A DNA stretch of 64,000 nucleotides, taken from positions 16,458,088-16,522,087 of the forward strand of contig CM037593.1 of the NCBI GenBank assembly GCA_021018995.1, written 5' to 3'. Positions within the stretch are counted from its first letter, which is position 1, and each line of letters begins with the position of its first letter. A program made the position numbers and the translations under genes. The notes under the pieces are model-generated. The model was not told the DNA's origin and did not search any database. It worked only from the letters and a program-made list of their open reading frames with translations. Below, in pieces: positions 18,696 to 54,379 of the stretch. The DNA is from Chloranthus sessilifolius (taxonomy: Eukaryota > Streptophyta > Magnoliopsida > Chloranthales > Chloranthaceae).

Positions 18696-20130
18696 TGATC
18701 GGTGCCGAAATGTGACTATATTTCGCACCTTAATTCCTACATTTAGCTATCCGATGAAAGCATGTAATGGCTATTATATAGTTTTAGCGGTTGGAGGTGT
18801 TTCTGACCGCTGGATTGTTAAAGAGCATAAAAGAGGATAATTAAAGATTACGCGGGAACAGTGGACCAAGAAGTCAACAAAAACATCAAAATTCGTGAAA
18901 GCAAGTGGCTGGCCTAGCATCCATCAGAAGAAGGAAGATCTTCTCTCTATGTGTCAATCGATTGAGGACAAACTCTCAATCGATTGACCATAAAGATAAC
19001 TTAAAAGATTCAAATTCAAATTCCAATCTGGAAAATCTAGACTCATTCGATTGAGAAAGGATTCTCAATCGATTGAGGCTATTAGGGAATTTATCTCACC
19101 GGCTCATATAAAAAGAAAGCTATGGCTTTGTGTTGGAGCTCTCTCTCTATTCCGGGTTCTTTTTTTAGGGTTCTTTTCGAATTAGGCTCTCTCTTCTCCT
19201 TTAGGATTTTCTTCTCGGGGTAGATTTGTATTTAGGCTTTTACAGTTCTTTTCTTTTACAGTTTGTAAAATCTATTTGTATTTAGGCTTTTACAGTTCTT
19301 TTCTTTTACAGTTTGTAAAATCATAGATTGTATCTAAGAAAAGCATTGTAATGAGATTTTTGGTGATAAATATAAAGTGCATATTTAAGAGAATGGCTTT
19401 AAGTTTTCAACGAGATTGCACACCAAGGATGAGCTGCTAAAACATTTATTTAAGGAGGATGTGATCCCCAGATAAGTAACATTTTTATTATTATCTCCAC
19501 AATTTTTTAGTTTCATCATGGAATCATTCTGCTAAAAGGTGTCTTTCATTGAATATCATTTGAATGTTTCATTATGACCGTTGACCGCGATTATCAACGA
19601 CCATAACCTCTAGATCTGTACCTGTAGGCCGATCTAGGCTGCAAAGTGATTATTTGTTCATTGTCATGATTTAAGAATCTTGAGATACGTTATACTTTTT
19701 ACATAATTCATACCGCAATGATAGGCTGAGTCATCGTTTTTAGATAGGGCATGCCGGATCGATGATCATGTTTTCTTACGATTCATTTTTCTTTAAGATA
19801 AATGATGGTGTGATTGATGTGTTATAGAATTGTGGGTGTAATGGTAGAAAGGTTATAAATCTGGGGTAGCAAATTTCTTGATCATTCTTTTAAATTGTCA
19901 TTTTATTTATCAAAATTTATTTTTGCTTAGATTAATCTTCTTTGTTGCGTTTAGAATCGTGTGGTGATTGTTTGACAAATCGAACTCTCTTCCTTAGTAC
20001 TTCCTTGGGTGTTTTAAATCTCTTTAAAGAATAATTAAATTTTACGCTTCCCTGTAGGTTCGACACCCTTGATTTCACCGTGCTATAACCGATCTTGTGC
20101 ACTTGCAAGGGTACAATTTAAAACAGATCA
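18696..20130 (+). repeat. 5' LTR of the Athila element
   Basis: The LTR is 1435 bp and is the partner of 52965-54354. It carries two motif pairs (18954-19076), a TATA box at 19107-19115, and a perfect local duplication of the GTATTTAGGCTTTTACAG region near 19228-19320 that the 3' LTR has only once. Confidence 0.95.
18954..19115 (+). promoter_or_regulatory. Two 22-bp-spaced palindrome pairs upstream of the LTR TATA box
   Basis: TCAATCGATTGA-type motifs start at 18954 and 18976, and at 19043 and 19065, each pair exactly 22 bp apart. TATAAAAAG follows at 19107-19115. The 3' LTR repeats this (53223 and 53245; 53312 and 53334; TATA near 53376). It looks like the LTR promoter. Confidence 0.75.
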
Positions 20131-20136
20131 AATTTT

Positions 20137-20152
20137 TGGCGCCGCTGTCGGG
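20137..20152 (+). other. Primer binding site, Athila type
   Basis: TGGCGCCGCTGTCGGG begins six bases after the LTR end. This GC-rich site is characteristic of Athila-lineage elements. Confidence 0.9.
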
Positions 20153-20207
20153 AAAACGACAAAAATTTTTAATTCGGAAAGAGATTTGTGTGAAATTGTT
20201 TGACAGT

Positions 20208-20708
20208 CAATCGATTGAGATTTTTTCTTCAATCGATCGACTGTGTTCTGTGGTTGTGGCGTACTAATTTGTCAATCGATTGAGTCGAAAGCATCAATCG
20301 ATCGACTGTTTTGAGTTTTAATTTTTTAAATTCCAACAAGTTAAAATCTGAATTTTTAATTTTGAATTGTGGATTTTCAAAATTTGAATGATGAAATGTT
20401 TGAAATTGTTGAAATTTAAAATTTAGAGCTTGAAAGTTGAATTTTGATTTTTGAAATTTGAAATTTGCAATTTGAATTTTGAAATTTAATTTTTAAATTG
20501 AATTTTGATTTTGAAATTTAGAATTGGCATTCTGGTTTTTGATTTGCAAAATCTTCTTTTTCTTATTTTCTTTTCTTTGGTAAGATTTTGTGGAGTTCTT
20601 TTAGGAATTTGAGAATTTTTAGGTCTCTTGTTTAGGATTTAAAGGATTCTCTTTTATTTTCTTCCTTCTTTTAAGTAAAGTTTTGTAGGATTTTGTGGGA
20701 TTGCTTTT

Positions 20709-20739
<31 letters not shown>

Positions 20740-21217
20740 GAAATTCAAATCTTGATTTGAATTTGAATTTTTGAATTTTAAAATTTTGATTTTGAAATTT
20801 GAATTTCAAAATTTGAATTTTGATTTTAAAATTTTCAATTTTAATTTTGATTTTGATTTTGAAATTTGGATTAAAATTTTAAATTTTCAATTTTTAAATT
20901 TAAATTTTTGAATTTTGAAATTCGAATTTTTATTTTAAAATAAAAAATAAAAATAAAAATAAAAATTATTTTATTGTTAATTGATTGAGACTGGGATATC
21001 ATTTGCCAGCATGTTGACTGAGAAATTTGTGAAATTCTATCAATCGATTGACATTTCTCTGCCAATCGATTGACTAGACCTCTATTGTTGCCAGCTAGAT
21101 TTTTGAACCTCAATCGATTGATTTTAATACATCAATCGATTGACTGATAAGTCTCTGCAGGAATATTGTTGTGTGTTTTGTCTCAATCGATTAAGACCAT
21201 TTCTTCAATTGATTAAA
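20208..21217 (+). repeat. Leader with 22-bp-spaced palindrome pairs and low-complexity DNA
   Basis: Motif pairs start at 20208 and 20230, 21040 and 21062, 21110 and 21132, 21183 and 21205, each 22 bp apart. A further pair lies near 20272. Between them (about 20341-20960) is a low-complexity tract of GAAATTTGAATTTTGA-like words and a T run near 20710-20740. It has no coding role; it is the untranslated leader before gag. Confidence 0.8.
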
Positions 21218-21386
21218 GTTGAAGTTTGTGGGTTTATTGTGGCTTCACTAATCCTTGTCCTGGGTGTTGTGCATGAGTTTTACTCGATCTCATCACCCAC
21301 ATCTACAATCGTTGAATCGTGAAATTGAAAGGTCTTGTAGAGAGAATCGTAAAACCCAAAGGATTCAACATCATCATATTGAAACC

Positions 21387-22800
21387 ATGATAGATCAAAG
21401 ACAAGAAAGGAATGGGAACAATCAAAATATTAATAATGGAAATAATGGGAATAATAATCATAATGAGGGCCCAAGAACATTGGAATATTATAATGATCCT
21501 AATTTTTACAAGGATCAAGATATTATCATGCATGCCCCCATTCTAGGAAACCATTATGATTTCAAATCCGCAGTGATTCAAATGTTATCGATTTTTCATG
21601 AATTGTCCAATGAAAATCCGCATGTTCACTTAAATGAATTTACTGGCGTGTATAAAATGTTCAGAGTTCATAATGTCACCGACGAGATAGCTAAGTTAAA
21701 AATTTTTCCCTTTTCTTTAAGGGATAAGGCAAAAACCTGATTCGATTCCTTAGAACCATAATCTATTCAAAGTTAGGTAGAGCTACACCATCAATTCCTA
21801 AAAAAATATTTTTTCATGACCAAAACCATTGAGTTGCTTCAAAGGATTCAATTCTTCTCCCAACAACCTACCGAAACATTTTATGAATGTTGGGAATGCT
21901 TTAAGGAATGGATTAAAAGTTGCCCTAATCATCAAATTCCAAGATGGCAACAGGTCTAAAGTTTTTACAATGGACTGATTCTAAAAGAGAAACGCATGGT
22001 TGATGCATCTTGTGGATGATCATGCACCACAAAAGAGGCCGATGAATTATGGGCATTGTTTGAAAAGTTATACCAAACCTTAATACAAAATGAGACCATG
22101 GGGCGAACTAACTTGGATGTGACAACTAAATCTCATGTGTTGACTAGAGATAGATTATACGATGTCAACAATAATACTTTAGATCTATCAACAATAGTTG
22201 ACATGTTGTCCAAACAAATGACCATGTTGTTAGCTGCAACCAAGCAAGCTAAAATTTCCATCACCCCCACTGTTTGTTCAATCTGTAACCACTCAAGTCA
22301 CATGGCTAATGAGTGTCCAACTACCTTGTCACTCTTTCCTGATAAACCTACTCCTCAAGAGCAGGTGAATGTGACTCAATCTTATCAGCGGCAGGGTAGA
22401 AACATGTACTCAAATACCTACAATCCGGAATGGAGAAATCATCCCAACTTAGGATGGGGAGGATCAAACCAAACTGGATAGGTGAACCAGCAGTACAGAT
22501 CTAACTCAATGATGGGACAACAGAACTTTTGTCCACAATAGAATTCTAATTTTCAACAGAATTCTCCTTATTATCTTCCAAATTCTGAGTACCAAAAAAA
22601 TCCAATTTTCAATCAGAATTTCAATCAATCTCATACCACCACTTCGAAATATTCTGATTTGGAAGAAAAGAATATGCGAAACATACAAGTTTTTCAGCAT
22701 ATGATAATGGACCAAGTCAGCTAATTGATCAATCAATTGAGTCAATGAGAGGAAGGTAGACTTCCTAGCCAACCCATCAACAATCCTCGAGGTCAAGCAT
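21387..22800 (+). pseudogene. Athila gag
   Basis: From the ATG at 21387 the product starts MIDQRQERNG and is asparagine-rich. The Athila gag domain follows (YKMFRVHNVTDEIAKLKIF near 21647-21705). A zinc-finger-like CSICNHSSHMANEC lies near 22279-22320, then a glutamine- and asparagine-rich tail. Gag forms the particle and binds RNA. Decayed. Confidence 0.85.
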
Positions 22801-22832
22801 CACCTGATGAAGGACCATTGAATAGTCAATAG

Positions 22833-24024
22833 TTGAAAGTTGTTACTGTGTTGAAAAGTGGGCGAGTGATTGATAATCAAGTGGCAATGCCTACGAAATC
22901 TGATAAGGAAGAAGAAGACGCGATTAAGGACAAAGAGCCAGAGAAAGGAAAAGAGAAAGAGTTCCCTCAAATTGTCCAACAAGGACCTGAAGAAGAACCA
23001 GAAAATGAACCCAATCCCTATATTCCAAAGGCACCATTCCCTAAGTGCCTAACACCTCCATCTAGAATGGGAAAAGAACCGTCAAAAATGGTAGAAATCT
23101 TTGAAACATTCAAGCAAGTAAAGATAAATCTTTCATTACTTAAAACAATCAAACAAGTGCCTGAGTACGCCAAATTTTTCAAAGATTTATGCACCCGTAA
23201 GAGAAAGGCATGTACTCAAGTTTTAAAGAAAGTGTTCCTGACTAATCAAGTCAGTTCGATATTGCAATTAAACGCACCTCAAAAACTCAAGGACCTTGGA
23301 GTCCCAACTATTCCATGTGTTATAGGAGGGCAACCAATTGGTAAGGCGCTACTGGATTTGGGAGCAAGTGTCAACCTGATCCCATACTCAGTGTATGAGA
23401 AATTTGGATTAGGAGTATCATTGAAGATGTTTTGGTTGGAATAGATAAATTTATCTTTCCAGTGGCCTTTGTTATTTTGGATATGGAACCACCAGTTAAA
23501 TCAATAAATCAAGTCTCAATCATTCTAGGACGTTCGTTTCTTGCAACCGCTAATGCCTGCATCAATTGTCGAACAGGAGTCATGGATGTTTCTTTTGGAA
23601 ATATGAAAGTCAGGCTCAATATATTTCATACGATGAATCATTCTCCCATTGAGGATGAGGTTGACTGTTTCTACATCGATCAGGTAGACGAAGTAGTGGA
23701 CGAATCTTTACCGTCAATGCTGACCAAAGAAGAATTTGAAACTATTTTGTTGGCCATTTGTGAGGAAAAACGATCTGAAAAGAAATAATCAGAAGAGAAG
23801 AGGGCAAATTCATCAAGTCAAGATGATAAGTTATGCGAGACTGAGACTAAGGTAGAATAGTTACCCATTGAGGCAAAGGATGAGCTGACTCCATCAATCG
23901 AGCAGCCACCAACTGTTAAATTAAAGAAACTGCCTGAGTCACTCAAATATTCTTTTTTGGGACCTCAAGAAACACTGCCGGTAATTATTTCATCAACATT
24001 ATCAGAAAAGCAAGAGCATGATTT
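22833..24024 (+). pseudogene. Athila protease region and linker up to the hAT insertion
   Basis: A charged lysine- and glutamate-rich linker precedes the aspartic protease, whose active-site region DLGASVNLIPYS lies near 23354-23389. The flap side IILGRSFLATANA is near 23519-23557. The reading then enters the protease-RT linker and is cut at 24032 by the hAT element; RT resumes at 43379. Confidence 0.85.
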
Positions 24025-24032
24025 GTTGAAAG

Positions 24033-24150
24033 CAAGGGTCAAAATATCGGTTTTCCGATACGTATCGTCCTGACCTCCAGGACGATACGTATCGAGTATC
24101 GGCCGATACATTAATGTATCGGCGATACATTGAATGTATCGGTTTGATAC
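24033..24150. repeat. Left hAT terminus and subterminal repeats
   Basis: The terminal repeat is followed by several copies of CGATACGTATCG and GATACATT words in both orientations. In hAT elements such repeats bind transposase. The stretch 24150-24615 is AT-rich and holds no gene. Confidence 0.75.
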
Positions 24151-25297
24151 ATTGAAATTATTTTTTTTCCTTCAAAAAATCCTTAAAAATTAAGAAAAAT
24201 AAATTTAATGATTTTCTACTTTTTTTTTACTTTTTTTAAAATATATTTAAAGCTTATTTGATGCATATTTCATAATAGGACGAATCCCTAATTAAAGTAT
24301 TGCATAATTACGACTAAAAGCTTTCAATTTTTTCCTTTCTTTTTTATTATTTAATAAATAAAAATTTTATTTACAGACAACAAAAATATATTAGGATATA
24401 AGTCCACAACAAAGGACAGATCACTCTTAACATAGTTGATTCATTGTACATGACTAATTTTCATTGTACATGACTAATGATCAAATTGTTATTATACATG
24501 ACTAATTATGAAAATTAAAAGGTATATTATAAAAAAAAATTAATTACTTTAGAGCCATATTGAATTTCGTGGTGGTTCTTGGCCCTCGTTATCATCATCA
24601 TCGATGCACGAGCTTTCCCTAATGTTGGCCATATTGATACCCATGATCATGTGTGCCTCCTTGAAACTGAGGCATTAGTGACGAATATGGCTCAGTGTAA
24701 TAGGTGAAGGTTGGTCCTCCAAAAATTTGACCAATAAAGTCATATGGCCCGGGATAGGTTGGTTGAGGCCGATAGTATGGGTTACTTGCTGTTGAATCTT
24801 TGGTATTTTGCAAATTAAATCCCCCGAAGCTAGAAGTCATATAACCCACATCATCTTGTGGACCTTGTGATGGTGGTGGAGGTGGTGTTTGGTAAGATTC
24901 TGACGCTCCTCTTCTTTCAATCCCTTCACCTCTAAATGTAGGAGTGTCATACATTGTTAGCGGGTCCTCGTCCCATGCGACAATACCTCCAGAAGTATAG
25001 AAATCAATATCATCCGCTCCACCACTAGTGCCAGCGTGGGTTTCATCGCCTCCATCATCACCCCCACCATCATCATTATCACTATTGGTGTAATAACCCA
25101 AAAAAATTACGTTAAACGGTGACCTCGAGATTCGTGCCCGACTGGTCATAAGTTTGACCAAGTAGGAGTTCACTAGTTGACTCGAGGAGTGATGAACGGA
25201 TGCGATGTGAAATTAAAGTAAACGTGTGGAGTGTGAGGTGAAATCTGGAACCACATACACCATTTAGGGTGTATGTGCTCAACACATGGAAAATGAG

Positions 25298-25305
25298 TAT
25301 AAAAG
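25298..25305 (+). promoter_or_regulatory. LTR TATA box of Tekay-2
   Basis: TATAAAAG is followed by GGTTAAAGAACC and, about 45 bp on, a GA repeat. It is conserved in the 3' LTR (35702-35709). Confidence 0.65.
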
Positions 25306-25679
25306 GGTTAAAGAACCCTAACTTACTCTTGTTTGGTTGTTGAAAGAGTTAAGAAGAGAGAGAGAGAGGGGGAGAAGTAAAGAGGGGTTGTTGTGCAAGG
25401 AGTGAATGCAAGCCAAGGGAGAGGGATTCGAGTATTTAAAGTCGAATTCAACGCGAAGGAGCCTTTGGAGCTAAAGCTGGAACCCAGGCCATTCCAACTT
25501 TGAGATTCAATCAAATTGGGATTTGATTGAGGTAAATTTTATTGAATTAAATGCATAAGATTGTAGGAGTTTAATTGAAGTCAAGAATGCTTAAAATTAT
25601 AGGATAAAGGCTTAGAAAAAGAAAGAAAAATAGGTTGAAGAGGAATTAGAAGATCAGCCCGAAAGGGGGCTGAATCTAA

Positions 25680-26062
25680 CCAAATCGATTAATCGAAATT
25701 GGATTTCAATTGATCGATTTTGGCCCAAAAGTTGAAAAGTCATGGAAGCCTGATTTCGATTAATCGATTTGGATTTCGATTAGTCGATTTGGAAATCGAC
25801 TAATCGACTGGGAAGCTCCAGCCACTGGAGAAATGAAACCTGGGGAAATCGACTAATCGAATTAGAATTTCAATTAATCGATTTTGAGATCTCGACTATT
25901 CGATTTAAGAATCGACTGCCTTATGTTGGAGACCTCGATTAATCAATTTGCGATCGATTAATCGAATTTGAATCTCGATTAATCGATTTTGAGAATCGAT
26001 TAATCGATTTTAGAAATCGATTAATCGAATTGCATTTCGATTAATCGATTAATCGACTTTGA
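25680..26062 (+). repeat. Phased palindrome array, core TCGATTAATCGA (5' LTR of Tekay-2)
   Basis: Consecutive motifs in the best-preserved part start at 25935, 25954, 25975, 25996, 26017 and 26037, that is 19-21 bp apart. Variants TCGATTAGTCGA and TCGACTAATCGA are interspersed. Confidence 0.85.
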
Positions 26063-27588
26063 CAATTTTGCTTAAACTTTATAATTTTCTTTGAGATTCA
26101 TGGAGGGTCCAGGACCTTCTTCTTTACATCTTTAGCGATATATTATATATGTTGTGATGTACCATAGGTGGTACGTGTGACCATGAGCATAAGGAGCCGC
26201 GTGGGACCTTGATGCTTGGACCATCAGAGAATTGAGGTAGGGAACACCTTGAACATGTACTTTCATTTCAAGAGCATGTATGTAGTGATATAATTATCAA
26301 ATTGAAGTTGTTTTTAAATGGTGAAAAGCTTTGTGAAAATAGGTGCGTGTGTGATACCAAAAATATGATAAAGGCATCTGTGTGATGCAAGTAACTAAGA
26401 ACAAGTAATCTAATGAGATTAAGACATCCCCAGGGGATGAGGAAGTGATAAGGCATCAGGTGTGATGCGGGTATATATACATCCCAGGGATGTATACATA
26501 GGATTGAATAATTACTGTTGAGGCCTAACTAATATAAGATAGCACACTTACACGGTGAACAACTATATGTAATGCACATGATATTTTTGTTATTTGAGGT
26601 TTGGAGGATACCCCACCGACGTGGCGGGATACCCACGACTGACGCAACAGGATATCCGTGATCGGTACGGCGGCGAATCCGTACACCAACACGGAGGTTT
26701 ATCCGTGACCGTAAGTACATCCCTGGGATGTTGTGTGATTTTAACCCCGCCGCCTAGTGAGAAAGGGGCTTGGGTCGTATTCCCAGGAAATACATTTTTA
26801 CAACTGTCTAATTAGATGACGATGAAGGGTATCTCATCGGGGCTCGATGCTATATTGCTCAGGGATTACTTAAGTTGAAGATTTAAGTTTTGCTTTAGGC
26901 CTGTTCAGTGTCATTCATGATTAAATCAACAGTAAAGTAATACATGCAACTTACCAGTAAATTGAGTATAAATCATTTGTTTTAATTGGTTTTCTAGCAA
27001 ATGCATAGATTCATCATGCTTTGAATATCATGGAATATATGTGAGTTTTGATTTATATGTTCATTGTGTTGTTCCCTATTGAGCTAGGATGTAACTCACC
27101 CTTTTAGACTATACGTCATAGGTCCTATGATAGCAGCAGCTGAGGCTTCGGGGGGCGTAGATCCGGGTGATTCGGATTACGTGCCGGGAGACGAGTTGGA
27201 GCCTCCACCCGAGGACTTCTTCTAGGTGACTCTGCTGCGTACTTTGACGGAGAGTAGTTTGAGAGTTTAGTGCGGCTTGGTATGTCAAGCCTTTATTTTC
27301 GAAACAATATAATTAAACTAGATATTCTGTTAGCGAACCATCTGGGGTGATCTATGTATCATCGATGGTTCGGGTCGGTTCTCTATTCATGTAGTGGCAT
27401 GAGAGTAGAATTGTCTTTTGAATATGCCAACTGGGCATATTAACGTTTTCTGCTTTAATGAGATTAATTGCTTTATTTATTATGTGGTGCTTGTTATATC
27501 AATGTTTCGTGCTAAGCTTTGGGGCACGGTCTGGAGGATCTTGCTGATGGCACGAGTTTCGGGGTGTCAAAATCTAGGTTGTCACAGT

Positions 27589-27600
27589 TGGTATCAAAGC
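27589..27600 (+). other. Primer binding site, tRNA-Met type
   Basis: TGGTATCAAAGC lies two bases after the 5' LTR. It has one difference from the usual TGGTATCAGAGC. Confidence 0.85.
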
Positions 27601-27677
27601 ATTTTCTTTTAGAAACTTTGACAATCATTCTTTTGTCAGAGCATAGGGACTTCTGCTAATGAAAACTTTGTTTTCAC

Positions 27678-33470: not shown

Positions 33471-33472
33471 CA

Positions 33473-33480: not shown

Positions 33481-33701
33481 GTTTTTTTCATTTCATTCGA
33501 AACCATTTGGATTTTTGTATTGCGCGCTTCTTCTTCTTCTTCCTTCAACCATCCGAGCTACCTAGGGTTTGGGCTTTTCGGATCGATTTAGGATCGAAAA
33601 CAATTGCATTCGGATAAAACGTCTAAGGTAAAACCCTAGATTTCATTTTCTTTCCAAATTCAAGCTATAGAAACCCTAATTTTTGTTGAATTTTCACCAA
33701 A

Positions 33702-41540: not shown

Positions 41541-41562
41541 AAGCTAAACTTTGTATTACAAA

Positions 41563-42036: not shown

Positions 42037-42629
42037 TAGCACAAAATTAGTAATACAAAATAAGTAATACAAAATAAACAAGTTTAGCTATAAAATAAAA
42101 TTAGTAAAAAAAAAGTTTAGTTTTAAAAAAAAGAGTATGATAGATCTAATGATAAAATTAGTAATAAATAAAAATTAATCTAAAAAATAATTATAATAAA
42201 TATAATAGATCTAATAAAAAAATAATTAAAAATTCAAGTTAGATGATGGAAAATCATACCTTCTCTTAAATATCCGACGAAAATATAAGTGTGACAATCC
42301 GGTGTCTACGATTTCGGTCTCCGATAGCTAAGAAACAAGAAGTATAGTGAATTATAAGTGGCGAAAGAAGACGTCTACTGGTGTAGAAGAAGGGATCCTC
42401 AGGTGATTTGTAAGTAAAGAAGAAGAAGAGATCCTCGTGTGATTTGCGAGTGAAGAAAAAGAAGATATTCTCGGGTGGTTTGCAAGTGGAGAAGAAGAGG
42501 ATGGTATGCAAATGAAGAATCCCTCTCCGGTGGGTTTTATAGCGGGTGGGATTTATCCGTTGCCACTTGCCAACTTGCTAATAGCAGGTGGGTTTTATAG
42601 AGGATGGTTTGCTAATAGCCGTTGCAAAT

Positions 42630-42890
42630 GCAACGGATATAATTTATTATATTCGTTGCTTTTGCAACATTTTAATTAATAAAATAATAAAAAAATACTA
42701 TGTAACGGATATAATTTATTATATCCATTGCTTTTGTAACGTTTTAATTAATAAAATAATTAAAAAAATACTATACAACGGATATAATTTATTATATTCG
42801 TTACTTTTGTAATATTTTAATTAATAAAATAATAAAAAAAATACTATGCAATGGATATAAAATTATATCCGTTGCATGATTTGCGGCTAT
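42630..42890. repeat. Tandem repeat of about 72 bp, 3 to 4 copies, in the hAT
   Basis: Units start with AACGGATATAATTTATTATA near 42632, 42705, 42777 and 42848. Each holds an inverted repeat around CAACGGATATAA and TTATATCCGTTG, with an AATTAATAAAATAAT tail. The preceding stretch 42240-42600 may be a promoter or 5' exon of the transposase gene; I see no clear signal. Confidence 0.75.
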
Positions 42891-42964
42891 TGTAACGAAT
42901 ATAAAAATAAAAAAATAAAAAAACAAATAGAAAAAGACAAAAAACTAAAGAAAAAAAGAAAGGA

Positions 42965-43378
42965 GATGGGCCCATCCGAAAAAAGAAATTATCGGCCGTA
43001 TCGGACGATACAAGCGATAATTTGCTCGTATCGGACAATACGAGCGATAATTTGCTCGTATCGTCCGATAAATTCATTTGCCCATTTTTTATTTTTTATT
43101 TAAATTGAACGATAATTTGAAAATATCATCCGATAATTTCAAATTATCGGGCGTATCGGACGATACGGGCGATAATTTGCCTGTATCGCCCGACAAATTC
43201 ATTTTTCCATTTTTATTTTTTTTTAAATTATCGCTGTATCGTCCGATATGGGCGATACATTGCCCGTATCGGACGATAATCACCTTATTTTTGAAGGGGT
43301 ATGATACATAGGCAATGTATCGTACCGCTTAGGTCCAAAACCGATACGTATCGGTATCGGACGATTTTTTGACCCATG
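42965..43378. repeat. Right hAT terminus and subterminal repeats
   Basis: At least eight TATCG-CCGATA-type palindromic words (for example CGTATCGGACGATACG) alternate with GATAATTTGC until the terminal repeat. Apparent small ORFs here are repeat shadows. Confidence 0.75.
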
Positions 43379-46144
43379 GTTGAAAGTGCTTAAGGACCAT
43401 AAGGAAGCTATCAGATGGACCTTAGCTGATCTTAAAGGGATTGATCCGTTAGTATGTATGCATAAAATACATCTGAAAGATGATAGCACATCGTCGAGGG
43501 AACGACAAAGACGACTGAATCCAAATATGAAAGATGTTGTTCTAAAGGAGATAATCAAGTTACTCGATGTTGAAATCATCTATGCGATCTCTGATAGTGG
43601 ATGGGTAAGCCCGGTCCGAATTGTTCCCAAAAAGTCAGGAATAACCATGAAAGAGACTACTAAAGGAGAGTTAGTGCCTACATGTAAAACAACTGGATGG
43701 CGTGTATGTATCGATTATTGAAAATTGAATACTGCCACGAGAAAGGGCCATTTTTCCTTTCCATTTATTGATCAGATTCTCGAAAAGTTTGTAGGACAAG
43801 AATATTATTTTTTTCTTGATGGTTACTCGGGATACAATCAAGTGCATGTGCTTCCATCGGATCAAGAAAAGAAAACATTTACTTGCCCGTATGGTACCTT
43901 TGCATATTGGAGGATGCCTTTCGGACTTTGCAATGCGCCGACCACTTTTCAGCATTGTATGTTAGCAATATTCTCGGATATGATTGACAAATTCAACGAA
44001 ATATTCATAGATGACTTCTCAGTTTTTTGGAGGACCTTTGAAACATGTCTTAACCATTTGACACAAGTATTACAACGTTACATCGAATCTAATCTTGTCT
44101 TAAGCTGGGAAAATAGTCATTTTATTATTCAACAAGAAATTGTGTTGGGGCATATCGTTTTCAAGAAATGAATTGAAGTTGACAAGGCAAAGGTCGACTT
44201 AATTGCTAATCTGCCCCCTCCAAAAAGTGTTCGTCAAATTCAATCATTTTTGGGTCACGCTGGATTTTACAAACGATTCATCAAAGATTTTAACAAGGTC
44301 GCCAAGCCATTATGCAACTTGCTTGAAAAAGATAAAGGCATTTTTGAAAGTGAGAGAACTATTATCCAATGCTCCAATAATCCAACCGTCGGATTATTCG
44401 TTGCCGTTTGAACTCATGTGCGATGCATCGGACTATACTATTGGAGCAGTCTTATGGAAAAGGGTAAATAAATTACCTCATGTGATTTACTACGCTAGTA
44501 AGACACTAATTGATGCACAATTGAATTACACCATAACAGAGAAGGAGTTATTAGCCGTGGTGTATGCATTGGATAAATTCCGTTCATATTTGCTCGGGTC
44601 AAAAATAGTAGTCTTTTCAGACCACTCTGCATTGAAGTATCTATTGGCGAAAAAGGACATGAAACCAAGGTTGACCTGATGGATTTGCTCCTCCAAGAAT
44701 TTAACTTTGAAATTAAAGATAAAAAGGGGGTTGAAAATATTGTGGCTGATCATTTGTCATGAATTTTGCCTGAAGAATCATCTGTATTTGAGACTATCCG
44801 TGATACCTTTCCGGATGAGCAGTTAATGGTAATCGATGCAACAGCTATAAAACTTCCTTGGTTTGCCAATATCATGAATTATCTGGTCACTGGCAGAATC
44901 CCTACGCAATGGGTAAGAATGATAAGAATCTCTTTTTCTCCCAGATAAAATACTATTATTAGGATGAACCACAGTTGTTCAAATTTTATTCAGATCAAGT
45001 CATCATAAGATGTATACCTGAAGAGCAACTAAGTATCATTAATTTTTGCCATACTAGGGCCTGTGGAGGTCATTTTGGAGGATAAAAGACTGCACAAAAA
45101 ATTCTTCAAAGCGGATTTTATTGGCCCTCCATTTTTCGGGACACTGTAAAATTTTGCAAAGAGTGCCAACGATGTCAACAGCTTGAAAATATTTCAAGAC
45201 GAAATATGATACCACTGAACCCAATTTTGATTGTTGAAATTTTCGATGTATGGGGGATCGACTTCATAGGTCCTTTTCCCCCATCATTCAGTTATTTATA
45301 TATTCTGGTAGCCGTTGACTATGTTTCAAAATGGATAGAAGTTGTGGCAACCCGATCAAATGACCACAAAGTAGTGGTCAAATTCTTGAAAGAAAATGTG
45401 TTTAACAGATTTGGGATTCCAAGAGCAATCATTAATGATGGCGGTTCGCACTTCTGCAACAGCCACTTTGCCACTTTTATGAGGAAATACGGCGTCACCC
45501 ATAAGGTGGCAATGCCATTCCACCCACAGACTAGTGGTCAAGTGGAAGTGTCAAATCGAGAGATCAAATGAGTTTTAGAAAAGACGGTACGATCAAATAT
45601 GAGAGATTGGTCGAACCGATTATCTGATGCTCTTTGGGCATACCATACTGCACTCAAGACACCGATTAAAATGTCGCCATTCAGGATTATATATGAAAAA
45701 AAATGCCATCTCCCAGTAGAATTGGAGCATAAGGCATTTTGGGCTATAAAAAGATTTAATTTTGACATGCAAGAAACAGGGTCCAATCGAAGGCTATAGC
45801 TAAACGAATTAGAAGAGCTACGCTATGATGCGTATGAAAATTCGAAGATGTATAAGGAATGGTATAAGAAGCTGCACGATCAATCAATTTCTCGGAAGGA
45901 GTTTCACATCGGACAAAAGGTTTGGTTGTTCAACCCCAAACTTAAGCTCCATCCTGGAAAATTGAAATCAAGGTGGGAAGGACCATTTCAGGTTGTATCT
46001 ACTACCGTGCATGGTGCAACTGAGGTTAGAAGTCTTAAGGACAATCGAATTTTCAAAGTAAATGGGCAACGACTTAAACCAATGTTTGAGCCAATGACTA
46101 AGATCAGAATTGAAGCGATGTACCTCAGTGATCCGAAAAGGTAA
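43379..46144 (+). pseudogene. Athila RT, RNase H and integrase
   Basis: RT resumes with the AIRWTLADLKGIDP region (near 43408-43449). GWVSPVRIVPKK and MPFGLCNAPTTFQ follow, then the catalytic IDDF motif (near 44010). RNase H has LMCDASDYTIGAVLW (near 44413) and FSDHSALKYL (near 44615). Integrase has the zinc-binding CKECQRCQQ (near 45157), GIDFIGPFP and [19 protein letters not shown] (near 45510). The C-terminal end is near 46144, with no chromodomain, as expected for Athila. Decayed. Confidence 0.9.
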
Positions 46145-46242
46145 AAAACCAAGTGATCAAGCTATCGACACATAAACGCAGTGCTTCCTGGGAGGCAACC
46201 CAGTGTGTTTTAAGTTTTTGTGGTAGGAATAGGGAGTCTTTG

Positions 46243-46777
46243 TCAATCGATTGACCTTTTACAAGGATCAATTGATTAATAATTACACTGTCAATCGATT
46301 AACACTTCAGTCATCATCATCATCATCTCGCTTCATCAATTGTGTGCCAGACCAATCGGCACATCTACGATGTCAATCAATTGAAACTCAAATATCAATC
46401 GATTGATAGTACCTCAAGTTAATGAGAAGATTTCAGAAATCAGAGTGTCAATCGACACGTCTTTTCGATGACGGGTAAGTCAAGGGGCACTTCAATGTCA
46501 ATCGATAGAGACTAACCTCTCAATTGATTGACCTAAATGTCACTTAACTCCGCCAGTTTCGACGGGCACCTAAACATCGCAACTTTTCTCGAAAAGGCCC
46601 TTGTCAATCGATTGACACCATTATGTCAATCGATCGACATTATGAAGGCATGCACACCTACCCCACGTTGCTTCCAGGTCTACACTACCCTTTGAAATTC
46701 TCGCAATGTGGTGAAGGTCAATCGGTGTCAATCGATTGAGGCTAGTCTCTCAATCGATCGACGATTAGATTATATAA
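46243..46777 (+). promoter_or_regulatory. Palindrome pairs and TATA-like box before the Athila accessory ORF
   Basis: TCAATCGATTGA-type pairs start at 46373 and 46395, 46498 and 46520, 46604 and 46626, 46728 and 46750, all exactly 22 bp apart; one looser pair near 46243 is 25 bp apart. TATATAA follows at 46771-46777, about 90 bp before the ORF start. The order and spacing mimic the LTR promoter (18954-19115). Confidence 0.65.
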
Positions 46778-46862
46778 TGGGGACACCCGTGGTCCCCTTC
46801 TTCACAAGCCTCTGCCAACCCGAGCTTTGCATCTCTACTTTCATTCTCCTCGTACGATCGAA

Positions 46863-49580
46863 ATGGCGGCACCTGGTTCACTGATTTACCGACCACCTCG
46901 TCCTGCCAACAATCCTATGCGCATTTCAAACGATGAGTACGTAAACCGCCAATTTCAAACGGAGAATTTCTTTGATCTTACAAAGTATCGACATATCGCT
47001 GAAGCAGCACGTTCCATCGAATTCATCGAGGTCCTACATTTGGAAATGCTGCTTGCTCCTCCTATTGATGTCTCGTTGCGTGTCCTGCGATTGTTCTACC
47101 AAAATATGGAGTGGGTATCAGCTCCACTATCACCAACGGGATTTCCATTCTTCCGCCTCGAGATTGACAATTGGTCGTACAATTTGTATGCCGCCGATCT
47201 TGCCCGTGCATTCAACTTCTACGTGGTTCGCCCAATAAACCGCCATATCAATCCAGTCGTTGATCTTAGCCAGGAGATTATGATCAACAATATGTGTGGG
47301 GGACGGCACGGGTCCGGTTTGTCCACCAAGCGAATTTTCCTACCTATGGACATTCTGTTTTGGGACATTGTTATGTCCAATAATTTATTATCGCATGGCA
47401 CGAAAAGTGAGAGGACAAAGAGTAGGGTGTTGGCACTTTATGCGGCGCACACAAATACTTGGTTCGAAGCACCGGGACTGATGCTTGAAGAGATGTATCT
47501 GTGTCATAGCGACATCGTGATCACCACTGCACCGAAAAAGTGAGAAGTCATCCTTTTGCATTTCCCGCACTATGTAATGCATCTGTTGGACCAAGTTGGG
47601 TGCCCAATTTTTTATGATGAAGAATTCGGTGATTGATGAGTAGTGAAATATGATGATATTTCACCCCTAGATACTTATATTTAGCTATCCGGTGAAGGCT
47701 ATCTGATAAGAATTATTAGATTTGAAGTGTTTCAGGTAAATACAAGCCAAGTGCAGAAAACAGCTCAAGAATTCTGAAAATAATGTCAAAACACTGCAAC
47801 TTTGGGTCATCGAGAACTTGGTGTGACTTGTAGCTCAATTTGGACATTCACGATGGCCGAATTATGAAATTGTTAAAACACAAAAGTTGTAGATTTTCTG
47901 TCAGCTTTCCAACGGATCAAGAATCGCCTCAATCCGAGTTCGGAACAAAGAGTTATGGCCAAAATACCAAAGCAGTATCTGATGCAAAGTTTGGCAGGAA
48001 TTCACGAAAATCTGGGAGGTCGATGCATCGACCCTATTGGGTCGATTAATCGACCCTAAATTTTCGAGTTGGAACACCTCTGTGTTGCTGGAAAACTTCG
48101 GCTCTATTTAAAGCGGATCAAATACTTCAGAAAATAGAAATTAGAGATAAGAATTAGAGAGAAAAATTAGAGATAGAGAATTAGAGAGTTAGTTTTAGTT
48201 TTTTCTTTTTTTTAGAGTTTTTGGAGAGAATTTTTTTAGAAGATTATTATTCATTATTATTATTTTTGGTTTTAGGCTCCTCTTGGCATCTTTTCAAGAG
48301 TTCTTCTTTCTCTTTCTTCTAGGGTTCCATCTGGGTAGATTGTACCTAGGATTTGCATTGTTTTTCCTTTACGTTCATGAAAGCATAGATTGTATTTAGG
48401 AAAAAGCATTGTAATCAAAGATCTTTGGAAGAAATAAAAAGAGGAATGGCTTTGAATGAACAAGGAGATCATACATCAAAGATGAGCGGCTAAATCAGTA
48501 GATCGGGGAAGATGCGATCCCCAGATAAGTACCCTTATTTATGATTAATACCATAGTCGATTTATTGTCATCATGGAATCGTTTTGTTAAAAGTTTGTGT
48601 TATTAAAAATATATTGAATGCTTGTTATGATCGTTGATGGCGCTTATCAACGGCTATAAGCGCTAGATCTGGACCTGCAGGCTGATCTAGGCTGCAGAGC
48701 GATTATGTGTTTACTGTTGTGATCTAAATATCATGAGATACGCTATGCTTCTTACATGACTCATACCGCAATGATAGGCTGAGTCATAGTTTTTAGATAG
48801 GGTATGCCGGATTGATGATCATATTTTATTACGAATCATCTCTATAGCTGAATGATGGTGTGAATGATGCTTTAATGAAACAGTGGGTTTTAATGGTAGA
48901 AAAGGGGTACAAATCTGGGGTAGCATATTCCTTGATCTCATTTAATTATTATTTTAGATTCATCAGTAATTTGTTGTTTAGATTAATTTATTTTTCTGCA
49001 TTTAGGAAAAGTGTGATAAATTTTGGTAAAATTGAATCTGCCCTTTGGTACTTCCTTAGGGACGTTTTTAAATCTCTGAAAGAATTAATTAAAATTCAAT
49101 ATTTTCCTGTGGGTTCGACACCTTTGTTCTTGCCATACTGCAATAGATCTTGTGCACTTGCAAGGGTTACACTTAAAATCGATCAGTGATATGCAATTCT
49201 ATCACTATAGTCCAAACGTGTGAGACAAAAGCATCAAGGGCATTCTTCGTGTAGCGCCACCACCTGTTGATGTCGATGAGATACCTCCTCCTCCTCCCCG
49301 ATCAAACCCCGCACAACACCAGCGTGGCGGCATTCGACGACCTCGTCCTGAGGAGGTCCCCGATTTTAACGCCGAGGCAGCAGTAGCTCGCCTCGAGGCG
49401 CGGATGGATGAGTTGAGTACAACAGTTGGAGGTATGAGTCAGCAGTAATAATTTCAGAGTTTCCTTCTCATGCGGATTGCCCGAGAGTCATTCTCGAGGC
49501 AAGCCGACGACTTCATCGCAAGAGAGAGAGCGGCGATGGATGGAGAAGGTGATCCTGAAGATGATGATGATGATATTTAG
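46863..49580 (+). pseudogene. Athila accessory (env-position) ORF, split by a solo LTR
   Basis: It begins MAAPGSLIYRPPRP. RVLRLFYQNMEW lies near 47080-47115. GSGLSTKRIFLP is near 47310-47345 and WFEAPGLMLEEM near 47461-47496. These align with the Tekay accessory ORFs. The C-terminal part resumes after the solo LTR (49191-49580) with a proline stretch, an AEAAVARLEARMDELS helix-like segment and an acidic end. Athila elements are known for an ORF in the env position. I see no convincing signal peptide or membrane anchor here, so the envelope label is not supported. Decayed. Confidence 0.75.
47634..49185 (+). mobile_element. Solo LTR of an Athila-related family
   Basis: It starts TGATGAGTAG, ends AAAATCGATCA, and is flanked by a perfect 5-bp duplication GTGAT (47629-47633 and 49186-49190). 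Its end region (GATCTTGTGCACTTGCAAGGG) and middle blocks match the Athila LTR here, but the rest is diverged, so it is a sister family. It has a TATA-like CTATTTAAAG near 48103. It arose by recombination between the two LTRs of a later insertion. Confidence 0.93.
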
Positions 49581-49806
49581 TATGTTTATGTTTGTGTTAG
49601 TGTTTGTTTTTAGTTTGGTCTATTTGTTTGTGTTCACATTTGTTTTGTTTTTGTGAATTGTAGTTTATGTTAGATGTAGGATTTGTTTTAGTTTTGTTGA
49701 TGGGATAACGTTTGTGTAATCAAATCATGATGGAATGAATGAAAATCGGAGTGTTCTAGTGTGTTATTTTTCTATGTATTCTCAGATTGGTGCATACATT
49801 CATCAG

Positions 49807-50203
49807 TCAATCGATTGAGATGAAAATCTCAATCGATTGAGAACTTTAATTCCCAAATTCTCGAAAAGTAATTCAAAACTGTTGATCGATTGACAAGCCT
49901 TTTTCATTCGATCAACTGTGACCTTCAATTCATATTCAATGTTTGAGGATCTTTGGTTTAATCCTGTCAGTGCGCATTGTGTAGAGTCAATAGATTGAAG
50001 TGAAACTGTCAATCGATTGACACTTTGGTGGACAGAACATTCTTTCTGTCATGAACAGAGAGATTTCCATAATTTGTATCGATTGCGTTGTGTGCATGTG
50101 TGCAAAAAAGTTTCTCTAAAAAAACAAGTGATTCTGGCTGTGCACCAGATTGCACCCTTGCATCATGTGTCAATCGATTGACACTCAAGAGTCAATCGAT
50201 TGA
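49807..50203 (+). repeat. Palindrome pairs downstream of the accessory ORF
   Basis: Pairs start at 49807 and 49829, 49882 and 49904, 49987 and 50009, 50170 and 50192, each 22 bp apart. A weak TATA-like TTTATTTAA lies near 50296, before the small ORF at 50380. Confidence 0.8.
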
Positions 50204-50379
50204 CTGATGTATGTTCCCAGAAAATACCTCTTTCATTCCGAAAAATCCAGATTCTAGTCCCCTCTTTAGAATAAACGTGTTTTAGCAAATTTTCTCTTTA
50301 TTTAACCCCTTCGTAGGTTAGTTCTTTTTAAAGCATTCCCTTAGTCAAGAGAATCAATCACCCTCCGTAATTTGGCATC

Positions 50380-50763
50380 ATGGATTCAATCCGATACCGC
50401 ACCCGTTCCGCCGTCAAACGCCTTGTTGAACCAGCTAGGAAAAAGTTACGTCGAGAATCGCCACAGTAACCGCTCGATTTGTCAAATAGAGAAGTCATTG
50501 ATCTTGACTTCGTATCAAATCAAGAAGTCCAATCGAGTTTTGCTCGTTCCATCGAAGCCGGGAATGATCCAACAATGAATTTGATTTCGACTTACTTATG
50601 GGCGGAAGTGGATCCGCAAACGCCACTCGTACCGCCGCCTCCTACCCCACCAACATCTCCGCCACAAGCGCCCATTCCACCACCCGACGAGGGCGGGATC
50701 ACTGAGGAGATGTGGTGTTACGCATTCCCACAGTCGAAGCGAGGGAGCGCTTCCAATGATGAT
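50380..50763 (+). pseudogene. Small Athila 3' ORF, unknown
   Basis: The reading from the ATG at 50380 starts MDSIRYRTRSAVKRLVEPARKK, a basic segment shown here as its first residues. It is followed by VIDLDFVSNQEVQ and a proline-rich stretch (PPPPTPPTSPPQAPIPPP), ending KRGSASNDD. I do not recognise a domain. It lies after its own motif array, as the other Athila ORFs do. It may be a second accessory gene or a remnant of the first. Broken at least once. Confidence 0.4.
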
Positions 50764-52950
50764 TAAGGGATTAGGATTGTTAGCTTTAGGGTCTAGTTTT
50801 AGGAGTCCTTTAGATTTTATTTTATTTTCATATTTTAGTTTAGGTTATTTTCTTTCAATTTTTAATAAGTGTAATAAATTGCACAAGTTTAATAAAAATT
50901 TAATTTAGTTCAATATTCGTGTTTTAAATTTCGGTCGCAATACCTTTCACTTGGCCCGCCTTTTGGTCCTCAATTGCATTTAATAGGTTTGGGGGTCTCA
51001 TACACTCTCCAAAAATCCAGCCAATGAGGACATTGGACGATTCAGGTTTGGAGGAGGGTATTTCTTTCGATTCATATGTGTGGAATTTCACTATTTAAAA
51101 AAAAAAAAAAGGAGAGAAAAAGGGGTTGTTCTCGGATTTTAAAAATGTGTCAGTCAATCGATTGAGACCATTGTCTCAATCGATCAACTGATAGTCATCA
51201 GCCCAGAAGCTTCCTACAGGTCATGGAACTGTCAATAGATTGATTCACAAAAATTAATCGATTGATAGCTGAATTATCAACTCTTTAATCTATTTAAAGA
51301 TTGCATCAGTCAATTGATTGACTGATAACCATTAAACTCATAAATTCTGAATTGATCTCATATTCTTAAATTGTTAATGACCGAAAACTTGTAAAGGAAT
51401 TGTCGTCACACCATGATTGTTCTACAATTGCTCATTAATTTCAATATGTGTTGAAAGATGATTTTCATTATTTTTGTCTGAAAAATTTTGTACCATCACC
51501 ATGTTTTAATTCTAAAATCTGAGAATTAAGTCTAGAACTTGAAATCCTAAGATCCCAAAGAAAGACTAAAACCTAGTAAGCTTTGGAACTTTGTCCTCGT
51601 TTTTAATGAGTGTTGAAAATTTTCGGAATATCTTTGAACTTTATTCTTAATTGTCGAAATCTCATATATTTTATCTCGATCTGTTGATTTTGCATGTGTT
51701 ATATTATTGTGCTAGAAATCATTGTGTAAAAATACAAAAAAAATAGGCATCATTACCATCATGAGAAGAGATGACCAAAGGACATCTTTGGCTCGTTTGT
51801 GTCCAAAATATCTTACTATATATTGTTTTATCTTGTTGCACCCCCTTTGAGCCTCAACTAAAAGATTTTGCCTTAAATATTCCTTGTAAGCTATATTAAC
51901 CATACCCCACACCAATTTAAAAAATCTTACCCTTTAATCTCTGATAAATTAGGGATGAGAGCAAGAAAGGAAATAGAGAGTTATGGCAATAGTATTCGCA
52001 AAGAGTATATGACAGAAAAATAAAAAGAAGAGCAGAGAAGAAAATATATCTTTGAGCAAGAAGTAGAGAAATATGTAAAAGTGGTGTTAAAAAAAAAAAA
52101 AAAAAAAGAAAGAGAAAAGTGATAAAAAGGAAAAAATTTCTGAAAATTTCAAAAAAAAAAGTGTAAAAAAATCAGAAAATCAATTGTGTTTCTTTTTCCA
52201 ATTTCTCAGAGAAATTTGAATCTAATTTCCCCTTTCTTTCTTAATCTTTACCCGAGCCCCATTACAACCTTAGTAAAGACCTTCTTGATCCAATCATGAG
52301 TGGTAAATTCCTTGTGGAGAGTGATTATACAATGTCTATGATTCTTGGTATATGCATGCTTAGGACACAAATATCTTTTCTAATGAGATTTCTTTTTAAA
52401 TTCTTTGTTGCACCATCTTTCTTATAACATGTGAGATTTTTCTAATTTATGTTGTAATTTCATCTCACATGTGGGTGAAAAGTAAAACTATTCATCGGAG
52501 TGATTTTATTTTGAGTGCATACCTATGGTGAGGATTGATCTAGAGGTGGAATCTAAAGACTTCTCGTTTAAACTGATTCTCAGATGAAAGAATTTTAGCA
52601 GTGATAATAGCATGACACTTTGGGCACGAATCATGAGTATTGGAAAAACAATGGATTGAATTGAATGAGCACTAATAAATTGAGCATGGCCAGTAGCATC
52701 TTATAAGTTTTCACGAACATTTAACTATTTAAGGGCATGACTACAATTCTAGAATTTATTAGTTTATGAAGTTTGTAGGTACCTTCACTGAAAACCTTCA
52801 GGAGACACAACTCCTCCACTAGGGATCACCTAGGGGTTTAAAGGCTTATTGCATAGGCTAAATGCAATCGTGTTCTCTACGAAAGTGGCATTCATTTTAT
52901 TTGTTAAATTGTTAATTATTTTATATCTTTGCTCGAGGACTAACAAACTG
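50764..52950 (+). other. Non-coding 3' region of the Athila element
   Basis: This is AT-rich sequence without a convincing ORF. It holds two further palindrome pairs (starts 51154 and 51176, 51232 and 51254, both 22 bp apart), a poly-A run near 52088 and GA-rich stretches near 52000-52150. The tract from 51320 to 52950 shows no recognisable feature. Confidence 0.6.
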
Positions 52951-52964
52951 TAGGTTTGGGGGTG
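52951..52964 (+). other. Polypurine tract of the Athila element
   Basis: TAGGTTTGGGGGTG lies directly before the 3' LTR start TGATCGG. Confidence 0.8.
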
Positions 52965-54354
52965 TGATCGGCGCCGAAATATGACTATATTTCATACCTT
53001 AATTCCTATATTTTGCTATCCAATGAAAGCATCTAATGACTGTTATATAGTTTTAGCGGTTGCAGGTGTTTCTGACCGTTGGATTGTTAAAGAGCGTAAA
53101 AGAGGATAATTAAAGGTTACACAGGAACAGTAGACCAAGAAGTCAACAAAAGCATCAAAATCCGTGAAAGCAAGTGGCTGGCCTAGCATCCATCAGAAGA
53201 AGGAAGATCTTGTCTCTATTTGTCAATCGACTGAGGAGAAACTCTCAATCGATTAACCATAAAGATAACTTAAAAGATTCGAATTCAAATTCAAATTTGG
53301 AAAATCTAGACTCAATCAATTGAGAAAGGATTCTCAATCGATTGAGGCTATTACGAAATTTATCTCATCGGCTCATATAAAAAGAAAGCTACGGCTTTGT
53401 TTTGAAGCTCTCTCTCTATTCTCTACTCTAGGTTCTTTTTTAGGGTTCTTTTCTAATTAGGCTCTCTCTTCTCCTTTAGGATTTTCTTCTCATGGTAGAT
53501 TGTATTTAGGCTTTTACAGTTCTTTTCTTTTACAGTTTGTGGAATCATAGATTGTATCTAGGAAAAGCATTGTAAAGAAATTTTTGGTGATATATACAAA
53601 GTACATATTTAAGAGAATGGCTTCAAGTTTTTAACGAGATTGTACACCAAGGATGAGCGGCTAAAACATTTATTCAAGGAGGATGTGATCCCCAGATAAG
53701 TAACATTTTTATTATTATCTCCACAATTTCTTCGTTTCATCATAGAATCATTCTGCTAAAAAGTGTCTTTCATTGAATATCATTTGAACGCTTCATTATG
53801 GCCGTTGACCACGATTATCAACGATCATAATCTTTAGATCTGTACCTACAGACTGATCTAGGCTGCAGAGTGATTATTTGCTCATTGTCGTAATTTAAGA
53901 ATCTTAAAATACGCTATGCATTTTACAAGATTCATACCGCAATGATAGGCTGAGTCATCATTTTTAGATAGGGTATGTCGGATCGATGATCATGTTTTCT
54001 TACCATTCATTTTTCTTTAAGATAAATGATGGTGTGATTGATGTGTTATGGAATTGTGGGTGTAATAGTAGAAAGGTTATAAATTTAGGGTAGCAAATTC
54101 CTTGATCATTCCTTTAAGTTGTCCTTTTATTTATCAAAATTTATTCTTGCTTAGATTAATCTTCTTTGATGCGTTTAGAATCGTGTGGTGATTGTTTGAC
54201 AAATCGAACTCTCTCCCTTGGTACTTCCTTGAGTATTTTAAATCTCTTTAAGGATCAATTAAATTTCACGCTTCTCTGTAGGTTCGACACCGTTGATTTC
54301 ACCATGCTACAACCAATCTTGTGCACTTGCAAGGGTACAATTTAAAATCGATCA
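52965..54354 (+). repeat. 3' LTR of the Athila element
   Basis: The LTR is 1390 bp and is the partner of 18696-20130. It keeps both 22-bp motif pairs and the TATA box, and is followed by the target duplication GTCAT. Confidence 0.95.
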
Positions 54355-54379
54355 GTCATCTTCCTTTTTTTATATGTAA

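Follow-up and report, generated by a model that had tools for sequence, protein, structure and literature searches.

A 12-bp palindrome, TCAATCGATTGA, recurs in pairs spaced 22 bp apart within an Athila-type retrotransposon of Chloranthus sessilifolius, and palindromes of related sequence stand in the same layout in other Ty3-type elements beside it. The window analyzed here is a stretch of 64,000 nucleotides (GenBank assembly GCA_021018995.1, contig CM037593.1, positions 16,458,088 to 16,522,087 of the forward strand), which holds the Athila-type element, the further elements A and B with their long terminal repeats (LTRs), and solo LTRs resembling those of B and Athila. The pairing is real. 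As to its meaning, we put the probability at about one half (0.5) that the pairs are operators for paired protein dimers, set in the U3 part of the LTRs and in front of an extra gene after pol, and possibly bound by the product of that extra open reading frame (ORF).

Palindrome pairs at a fixed spacing in the Athila-type element

When up to 2 mismatches are allowed, 67 TCAATCGATTGA sites are found across the window. The spacing is 22 bp in 18 of the 31 site-to-site distances of at most 60 bp, any other value occurring 0-2 times, and all 18 pairs lie inside the Athila-type element (18696-54354). The Athila segments scanned (18696-25088 and 38067-54354) contain 45 sites, compared with a mean of 2.9 and a maximum of 7 in shuffled sequence, and their 18 pairs compare with 0 in each of 100 dinucleotide shuffles, which rules out chance or base composition as the source of the pattern. 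The first-pass annotation of this DNA had reported at least 18 pairs; we count exactly 18, with a spacing peak that is absent from the shuffles, and 11 of the 12 pairs that it located are placed exactly, the pair that it put at 20208/20230 lying at 20207/20229. Two of the pairs (53223 and 53312) are the 3' LTR copies of those at 18954 and 19043, leaving 16, and there is an additional degenerate pair, 49882/49904, with 3 mismatches in its second arm. Of the 45 sites, nine belong to none of the 18 pairs (46243/46268/46291, 20977, 22729, 49882, 51306/51310 and 52648), with site 22729 falling in the gag region.

The arms and their distance are conserved, the surrounding block is not. Across 17 Athila pairs (the 16 together with the degenerate one, the two 3' LTR copies being excluded), the 10-bp spacers show 34% pairwise identity, as against 32% for the left and 31% for the right flanks, in agreement with the earlier claim that the sequence between the motifs is not conserved. 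Because the spacers are no more alike than the flanks, the pairs are not copies of one block, and an origin from a duplicated block is ruled out for Athila. Distances between successive pairs are irregular, no regularity being apparent by eye. The pairs are found in U3, in the leader, before gag, before the extra ORF and in the 3' region (Table 1), and pol, from which the motifs had been said to be absent, indeed has zero TCAATCGATTGA sites (43301-46150).

The element that carries the pairs, which we take to belong to the Athila lineage from the first-pass annotation and from known features of that lineage, has LTRs that are 88% identical (18696-20130 versus 52965-54354). Its outer ends, TG and CA, and its 5-bp target duplication (GTCAT, 18691-18695 and 54355-54359) are those of an LTR element, and the stretch 43722-45571 holds successive matches to an RVT_1-type reverse transcriptase (RT), RNase H and integrase. 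Element B (LTRs 25089-27586 and 35493-38066) and a hAT-like block with DUF659 and BED matches on the minus strand are nested within the Athila-type element. In the Athila leader, two runs of 7-base TTTGAAT-like repeats (20349-20930) lie between palindrome clusters.

Related palindromes, TATA-like boxes and extra ORFs

The arrangement had initially been tied to Athila, a restriction that does not hold, as other palindromes stand in the same layout in other Ty3-type elements of the window. Related palindromes, mostly 19-22 bp apart, occur in elements A and B, in the B-like solo LTR and in the Athila-like solo LTR. Element A (LTRs 4116-6644 and 14397-16933) and element B are assigned to the Ty3 type by Ty3_capsid, gag and Tf2-type matches above the cut-off; a chromodomain match in A lies just below it. 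The sites of A resemble TCGTTCGAACGA and TCGATCGAACGA and form five pairs at 20 or 21 bp in front of its extra ORF, and in B and the B-like solo LTR the TCGATTAATCGA sites often form longer arrays rather than pairs. The Athila-like solo LTR carries a pair consisting of GGTCGATGCATCGACC and GGGTCGATTAATCGACCC, with centres at 48025/48047, again 22 bp apart, 52 bp before the TATA-like CTATTTAAAG.

The LTR arrays occupy positions 598-985 of 2529 in A and 597-967 of 2498 in B, and their motifs differ. The two LTRs align mainly in their last 1000 bases; since the array starts align as well, over 41 bases at 78% (4710-4750 with 25682-25722), the arrays are probably homologous in place, with the motif having diverged. 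Comparison of the Athila LTR with the Athila-like solo LTR gives two aligned stretches, one of 55 bases near the start and one made up of the final 855 bases; most of U3 cannot be aligned, yet in both LTRs a 22-bp pair lies upstream of a TATA-like box.

The motif families of Athila, A, B and the solo LTRs have a common pattern, the 12-bp palindrome TCRWT-NN-AWYGA. Its 109 exact sites in the window are distributed over non-coding parts of elements, LTRs included (104), coding parts (3) and other DNA (2), with the boundaries between coding and non-coding parts drawn by us from the ORFs. In ten non-redundant non-coding segments, there are 80 exact sites versus a shuffle mean of 1.1 and maximum of 5, and 34 pairs at 20-22 bp versus 0 in 100 shuffles, counts that are descriptive because the pattern was derived from the same window. 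That the sites are a property of all local DNA is ruled out, given that the left flank, the gap before Athila, the hAT-like block and the right flank hold 2 of the 109 exact sites in total.

A, B and Athila each have one sense ORF after pol, and by sequence comparison these extra ORFs are homologous: P0001 of element A and P0002 of Athila share 28% identity over 234 columns (E 2e-21), and P0001 and the longer piece of the B ORF share 41% over 169 columns (E 3e-43). The match of P0001 to Transposase_32 (PF20167) remains below the gathering score (15.8 bits versus 45, E 0.013, 146 of 177 profile positions), and P0002 and the two B pieces have no Pfam match. None of 5158 candidates in the protein collection proved to be a homologue of P0001, and no relatives of P0001 or of the Athila RT/RNase H piece were present in viral contigs. 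The likely start of the extra ORF of element A, an ATG at 12612 within sequence alignable to the start region of B, is out of frame with the body of the ORF, so that the A copy is probably broken near its start (12612-12656). In Athila, a proline-rich stretch with stops follows the solo LTR at 47634-49185 and may be the C-terminal end of the extra ORF, and further downstream an ORF-like stretch (50380-50766), basic in its N-terminal part and interrupted by a single in-frame stop, has a palindrome cluster of its own upstream.

The arrays in front of the extra ORFs end 4 bp (A), 10-11 bp (B) and 10 bp (Athila) from the TATA-like strings CTATATATAG, CTATATATAC and TATATAATGGGG, that is, in all three elements, against a background of 2.7% of sampled element positions with a TATA-like string at most 20 bp downstream. 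Over all ten array ends tested, a TATA-like box lies within 60 bp of five (background 7.6%).

Repeats of other kinds are present in the neighboring DNA. The hAT-like block, whose remnant comprises BED (40329-40751) and DUF659 (39375-40328) matches in minus orientation, holds palindromes of a different type. GTATCG...CGATAC palindromes at 24055-24156 and 42990-43370 flank the block that includes the hAT-like remnant and element B, and may be subterminal repeats of a transposon. A region of 166-bp tandem repeats at 41560-42065 apparently contains GTGTCGCGACAC palindromes, and the right flank has 21-bp tandem units with ATCGGCC-like palindromes at 60911-60952 and 61263-61302.

Table 1. Palindrome arrays, extra ORFs and LTRs in the window, and the 22-bp pairs of two bacterial loci (numbered within their own records)
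Feature	Position	Strand	Remarks
Athila 5' LTR	18696-20130	+	starts with TGATCGG
Athila pair 1 in U3	18954-18987	+	22-bp spacing
Athila pair 2 in U3	19043-19076	+	about 30 bp upstream of TATA-like CATATAAAAAG (TATAAAA at 19107)
Athila, two leader pairs	20207-20305	+	20207/20229, 20272/20294
Athila, three pairs before gag	21040-21216	+	21040, 21110, 21183
Athila, irregular site triplet	46243-46302	+	25 and 23 bp apart; exception to the 22-bp rule
Athila, four pairs before extra ORF	46373-46761	+	46373, 46498, 46604, 46728; followed by TATA-like TATATAATGGGG (46771)
Athila extra 3' ORF (P0002)	46863-47543	+	ATG at 46863; stop to stop 46746-47543
Athila-like solo LTR	47634-49185	+	duplication GTGAT; sits in the Athila 3' ORF region
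Athila pairs 49807, 49882 (degenerate), 49987, 50170	49807-50203	+	upstream of the ORF-like stretch 50380-50766
Athila, 3'-region pairs 51154, 51232	51154-51265	+	
Athila 3' LTR	52965-54354	+	carries copied pairs 53223/53245, 53312/53334
Element A LTR array	4713-5100	+	at most 2 mismatches to TCGTTCGAACGA, TCGTTCGATCGA or TCGATCGAACGA; 7 of 12 neighbor spacings 20-22 bp
Element A array before extra ORF	12026-12357	+	five pairs at 20-21 bp and one site; followed by CTATATATAG (TATATAT at 12361)
Element A extra ORF (P0001)	12656-13936	+	426 aa, stop to stop; weak PF20167 Transposase_32 match
Element B 5' LTR array of TCGATTAATCGA	25685-26056	+	8 of 12 neighbor spacings 19-21 bp
Element B array before extra ORF	32893-33453	+	9 of 16 neighbors 19-21 bp apart; followed by CTATATATAC (TATATAT at 33463)
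Element B extra ORF	33690-35000	+	homologous to P0001; one in-frame stop ending at 34190
Element B 3' LTR array copy	36087-36538	+	12 of 16 neighbors 19-22 bp apart
B-like solo LTR (54380-56903), array of 16 TCGATTAATCGA sites	55841-56300	-	12 of 15 neighbors 19-22 bp apart
Bacterial locus L001, 22-bp pair	3649-3682		junction of divergent TetR-type genes, followed by an outer membrane efflux gene
Bacterial locus L002, 22-bp pair	5233-5266		junction of divergent TetR-type genes

Comparison with known systems

Palindromic repeated motifs have already been published for Sireviruses, so that the first-pass annotation went too far in considering an arrangement of this kind undescribed. According to the parts of Bousios et al. 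(2010, PMC2829016) consulted, the motifs of the 13 Sireviruses (Ty1/copia) examined number at least 8 per element, cluster in the LTR ahead of its TATA box and have a CGG-CCG core in all but Tnd-1, whose motif is ACAATCGATTGT; in Sireviruses with an ENV-like gene, the motifs are also found upstream of that gene (77 of 79 linker copies). The elements described here resemble them in having at least 8 palindromic copies per element (45 sites with at most 2 mismatches in the Athila segments), in the position of motifs shortly upstream of the LTR TATA-like box in Athila (30 bp) and in the Athila-like solo LTR (52 bp), and in the motif cluster upstream of the additional gene after pol in A, B and Athila (3 of 3). 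Unlike in Sireviruses, the LTR arrays of A (336 bp) and B (88 bp) are not close to a TATA-like box, the RT of Athila is of the RVT_1 type, with the copia-type RVT_2 found only in the left flank (2718-3452), and the motifs follow TCRWT-NN-AWYGA instead of having a CGG-CCG core, being similar in this respect to ACAATCGATTGT of the exceptional Tnd-1. The layout is thus much alike, whereas lineage, two-turn pairing and homologous extra ORFs set the two apart. Sirevirus palindromes are reportedly also the subject of work from 2016. Two-turn paired spacing is not described in the consulted parts of PMC2829016, nor are paired palindromes in Athila or other Ty3 elements mentioned in the titles or abstract openings of the literature surveyed. 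The strict two-turn pairing and its link to an extra ORF look new, within a layout related to the known Sirevirus one.

The VANC proteins of Arabidopsis VANDAL elements, which are DNA transposons, have been shown experimentally to bind element-specific non-coding motifs, YAGTATTAY and AGTTGTCC/AGTTGTAC (PMC5735166, PMC10398659). By analogy, they provide a mechanistic model in which an element's own protein acts on element-specific non-coding motifs. As in VANDAL, short motifs are repeated in non-coding DNA, diverge between related families and lie beside an element-encoded accessory protein; unlike there, the elements are of the Ty3 type and the binder is putative, and the word "palindrome" is absent from the portion of PMC5735166 consulted. 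The extra ORFs were compared with the VANC family by a Pfam scan only, in which the sub-threshold PF20167 match of P0001 was the sole match.

No agreed function exists for the extra ORFs of plant Ty3 elements (PMC7264820, PMC11728184). The one of sunflower Athila follows pol and has partial similarity to Transposase_32 (PF20167) and a predicted nuclear signal, and that of sunflower Tekay lies 5' of gag (PMC11728184), unlike the extra ORFs of A and B, which come after pol. The word "palindrome" has 0 occurrences in the consulted text of this sunflower study and is likewise absent from that of a later paper, which leaves open the effect of such ORF products on methylation. In Retand elements, 97% of clusters have an ORF in antisense orientation whose TRP28 domain is predicted to bind DNA. 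For the transposon-derived plant mobile domain proteins, the affected genes are partly enriched for a common promoter motif; a link between these proteins and the extra ORF is only a thought.

A scan of a prokaryote collection recovered the exact 34-bp unit, TCAATCGATTGA-N10-TCAATCGATTGA, in two records, an Acidobacteria bin and Geothrix rubra, both Acidobacteriota; viral contigs gave 0 matches to the exact 22-bp pair. At both bacterial loci, the unit is located where two divergently oriented genes with TetR_N matches meet. Mechanically called ORFs overlap the unit; with internal start codons, by eye the likelier choice, it falls between the two genes. The loci look like homologues of one another with no relationship to the plant elements, and their unit is likely a dimer-pair operator, to which protein would bind. 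The unit is the same, the organisms and proteins are unrelated, and the likeness is one of geometry only; by this analogy, such pairs can arise at places where binding by dimeric regulators is to be expected.

Operators for paired dimers and rival explanations

From the spacing and placement of the pairs, we infer a mechanism in which one protein dimer would occupy each 12-bp palindrome, and two dimers bound to one face of the DNA at a distance of about two helical turns (20-22 bp) would touch each other; this contact would keep the spacing fixed and leave the spacer free to drift. The operators would lie upstream of presumed promoters for the genomic RNA (LTR U3) and for the extra gene after pol, and bound dimers would switch both on or lift their silencing. 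As the source of the protein, the extra ORF itself (Transposase_32-like) is the likeliest single candidate; in that case the module would regulate itself, possibly as a VANC-like anti-silencing system, with a motif that drifts between families. Cooperative dimers on one DNA face had been suggested in the first-pass annotation, and strict spacing, unconserved spacers, the mostly non-coding location and the TATA-like boxes shortly downstream of five of the ten arrays all speak for them, with hairpins as a live rival. The operator reading also draws on the matching LTR position of the A and B arrays, the homology of the three extra ORFs, the comparable Sirevirus layout and the bacterial unit next to TetR-type genes. 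The more far-reaching proposal, that Athila and A/B-type elements, two separate Ty3 lineages, share a self-regulating module in which a dimeric extra ORF product acts on palindrome pairs in the LTR and at its own internal promoter, is tentative, and we are inclined to doubt it.

Several observations weigh against the operator reading. The Pfam scan recognized no DNA-binding domain in the extra ORF, AlphaFold2 yielded no usable model from its 4-row alignment (pLDDT, the predicted local distance difference test score, of 40), and P0001 has no match among PDB sequences. Five of the ten array ends are far from a TATA-like box (88, 96, 336, 435 and 1346 bp), the LTR arrays of A and B being distant by 336 and 88 bp, respectively. 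Elements A and B are related, and so the three TATA-adjacent cases in front of extra ORFs are not independent. The enrichment of the generic motif is partly built in, and complementarity at the level of the pair is equally expected from a hairpin.

This last point arises from the symmetry of the 34-bp unit, which has two levels: each arm is palindromic, and the arms can pair with each other, resulting in dyad symmetry about the middle of the spacer. In 11 of 17 Athila pairs, against 5.0 expected, the bases immediately inside the two arms are complementary (GC, CG and TA types; p = 0.001, uncorrected for the 17 non-arm positions), and flank and spacer complementarity combined give p = 0.019, the spacer alone 0.055. 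The same trend just inside the arms is seen in A (7/10, p 0.087), B (11/22, 0.154) and the B-like solo LTR (9/15, 0.042). Within the arms, cross-arm complementarity is at permutation level in Athila (p 0.18), B (0.17) and the B-like solo LTR (1.0); for ten chosen pairs of element A, cross-arm mismatches are below permuted values (p = 0.036) and direct mismatches are not (0.88). The two 3' LTR copies of Athila and the 3' LTR of B were excluded from these tests, as were, in A, the whole 3' LTR and sites including 4911, 5009, 5089 and 12346. Templated correction of quasi-palindromes during copying could also yield complementary arms, and the symmetry is compatible with such correction, with a hairpin or with a dyad-symmetric protein tetramer.

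RNA or cruciform hairpins, with a stem of 12-16 bp and a short loop, might serve RNA stability, packaging or small-RNA production. All ten units folded as RNA (8 of the 17 Athila pairs, 1 from the Athila-like solo LTR and 1 from element A) form strong hairpins, with z from -3.0 to -7.2, and the complementary inner bases, the corresponding trend in A, B and the B-like solo LTR and the cross-arm result in A point the same way. However, a single p of 0.001 among 17 positions is modest, within-arm complementarity does not rise above permutation in Athila, B or the B-like solo LTR, and the second arm TCAATCGATCGA, present in 4 pairs, disrupts one base pair in the sense RNA. We favor a protein over a hairpin for two reasons: hairpin formation requires neither that the arms be palindromic nor that the loop be exactly 10 bases long, and the arrays of B are many sites in a row, not isolated pairs. 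Hairpins are, in our estimation, unlikely. Half-sites such as CAAT/ATTG resemble homeodomain sites, and a host plant transcription factor might bind sites that the elements have copied, leaving the extra ORF uninvolved. According to Bousios et al. (PMC2829016), short-repeat arrays in LTRs are often host factor sites, and their comparison of Sirevirus motifs with known plant sites recovered mainly stress-related ones. Yet the motifs vary by family while spacing and position stay, which better suits co-evolution with a family-specific factor, and all three elements with arrays before the extra ORF carry homologous extra ORFs, so that a host factor, too, appears rather improbable.

Ordinary functionless tandem repeats, produced by slippage or unequal exchange, would account for the arrays with periods of 20-42 bp and more that Tandem Repeats Finder reports in A, B and the B-like solo LTR, and for the spacers of B and the B-like solo LTR, which are partly conserved (25-67% identical, depending on the group). 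We consider this origin very improbable, as the Athila pairs are dispersed over several regions at irregular inter-pair distances, with spacer identity no higher than that of the flanks, and the sites avoid coding parts. It is scarcely credible that the pairs are recognition sites for the reverse transcription, packaging or integration machinery: some do lie in the leader just after the 5' LTR, but most lie elsewhere, many of them before 3' ORFs, and a few sites would be expected to suffice where the element has 18 pairs.

Should such a self-regulating module exist, it would be a retrotransposon counterpart of VANC, with a drifting motif and a geometry that is kept, and the Sirevirus motif layout would be extended to Ty3 elements. 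It would also offer a possible function for the unexplained Transposase_32-type ORFs: if each ORF product binds the pairs of its own family, an orphan protein family would become tied to promoter control or anti-silencing. An operator module of this kind would also bear on how retrotransposons evade silencing.

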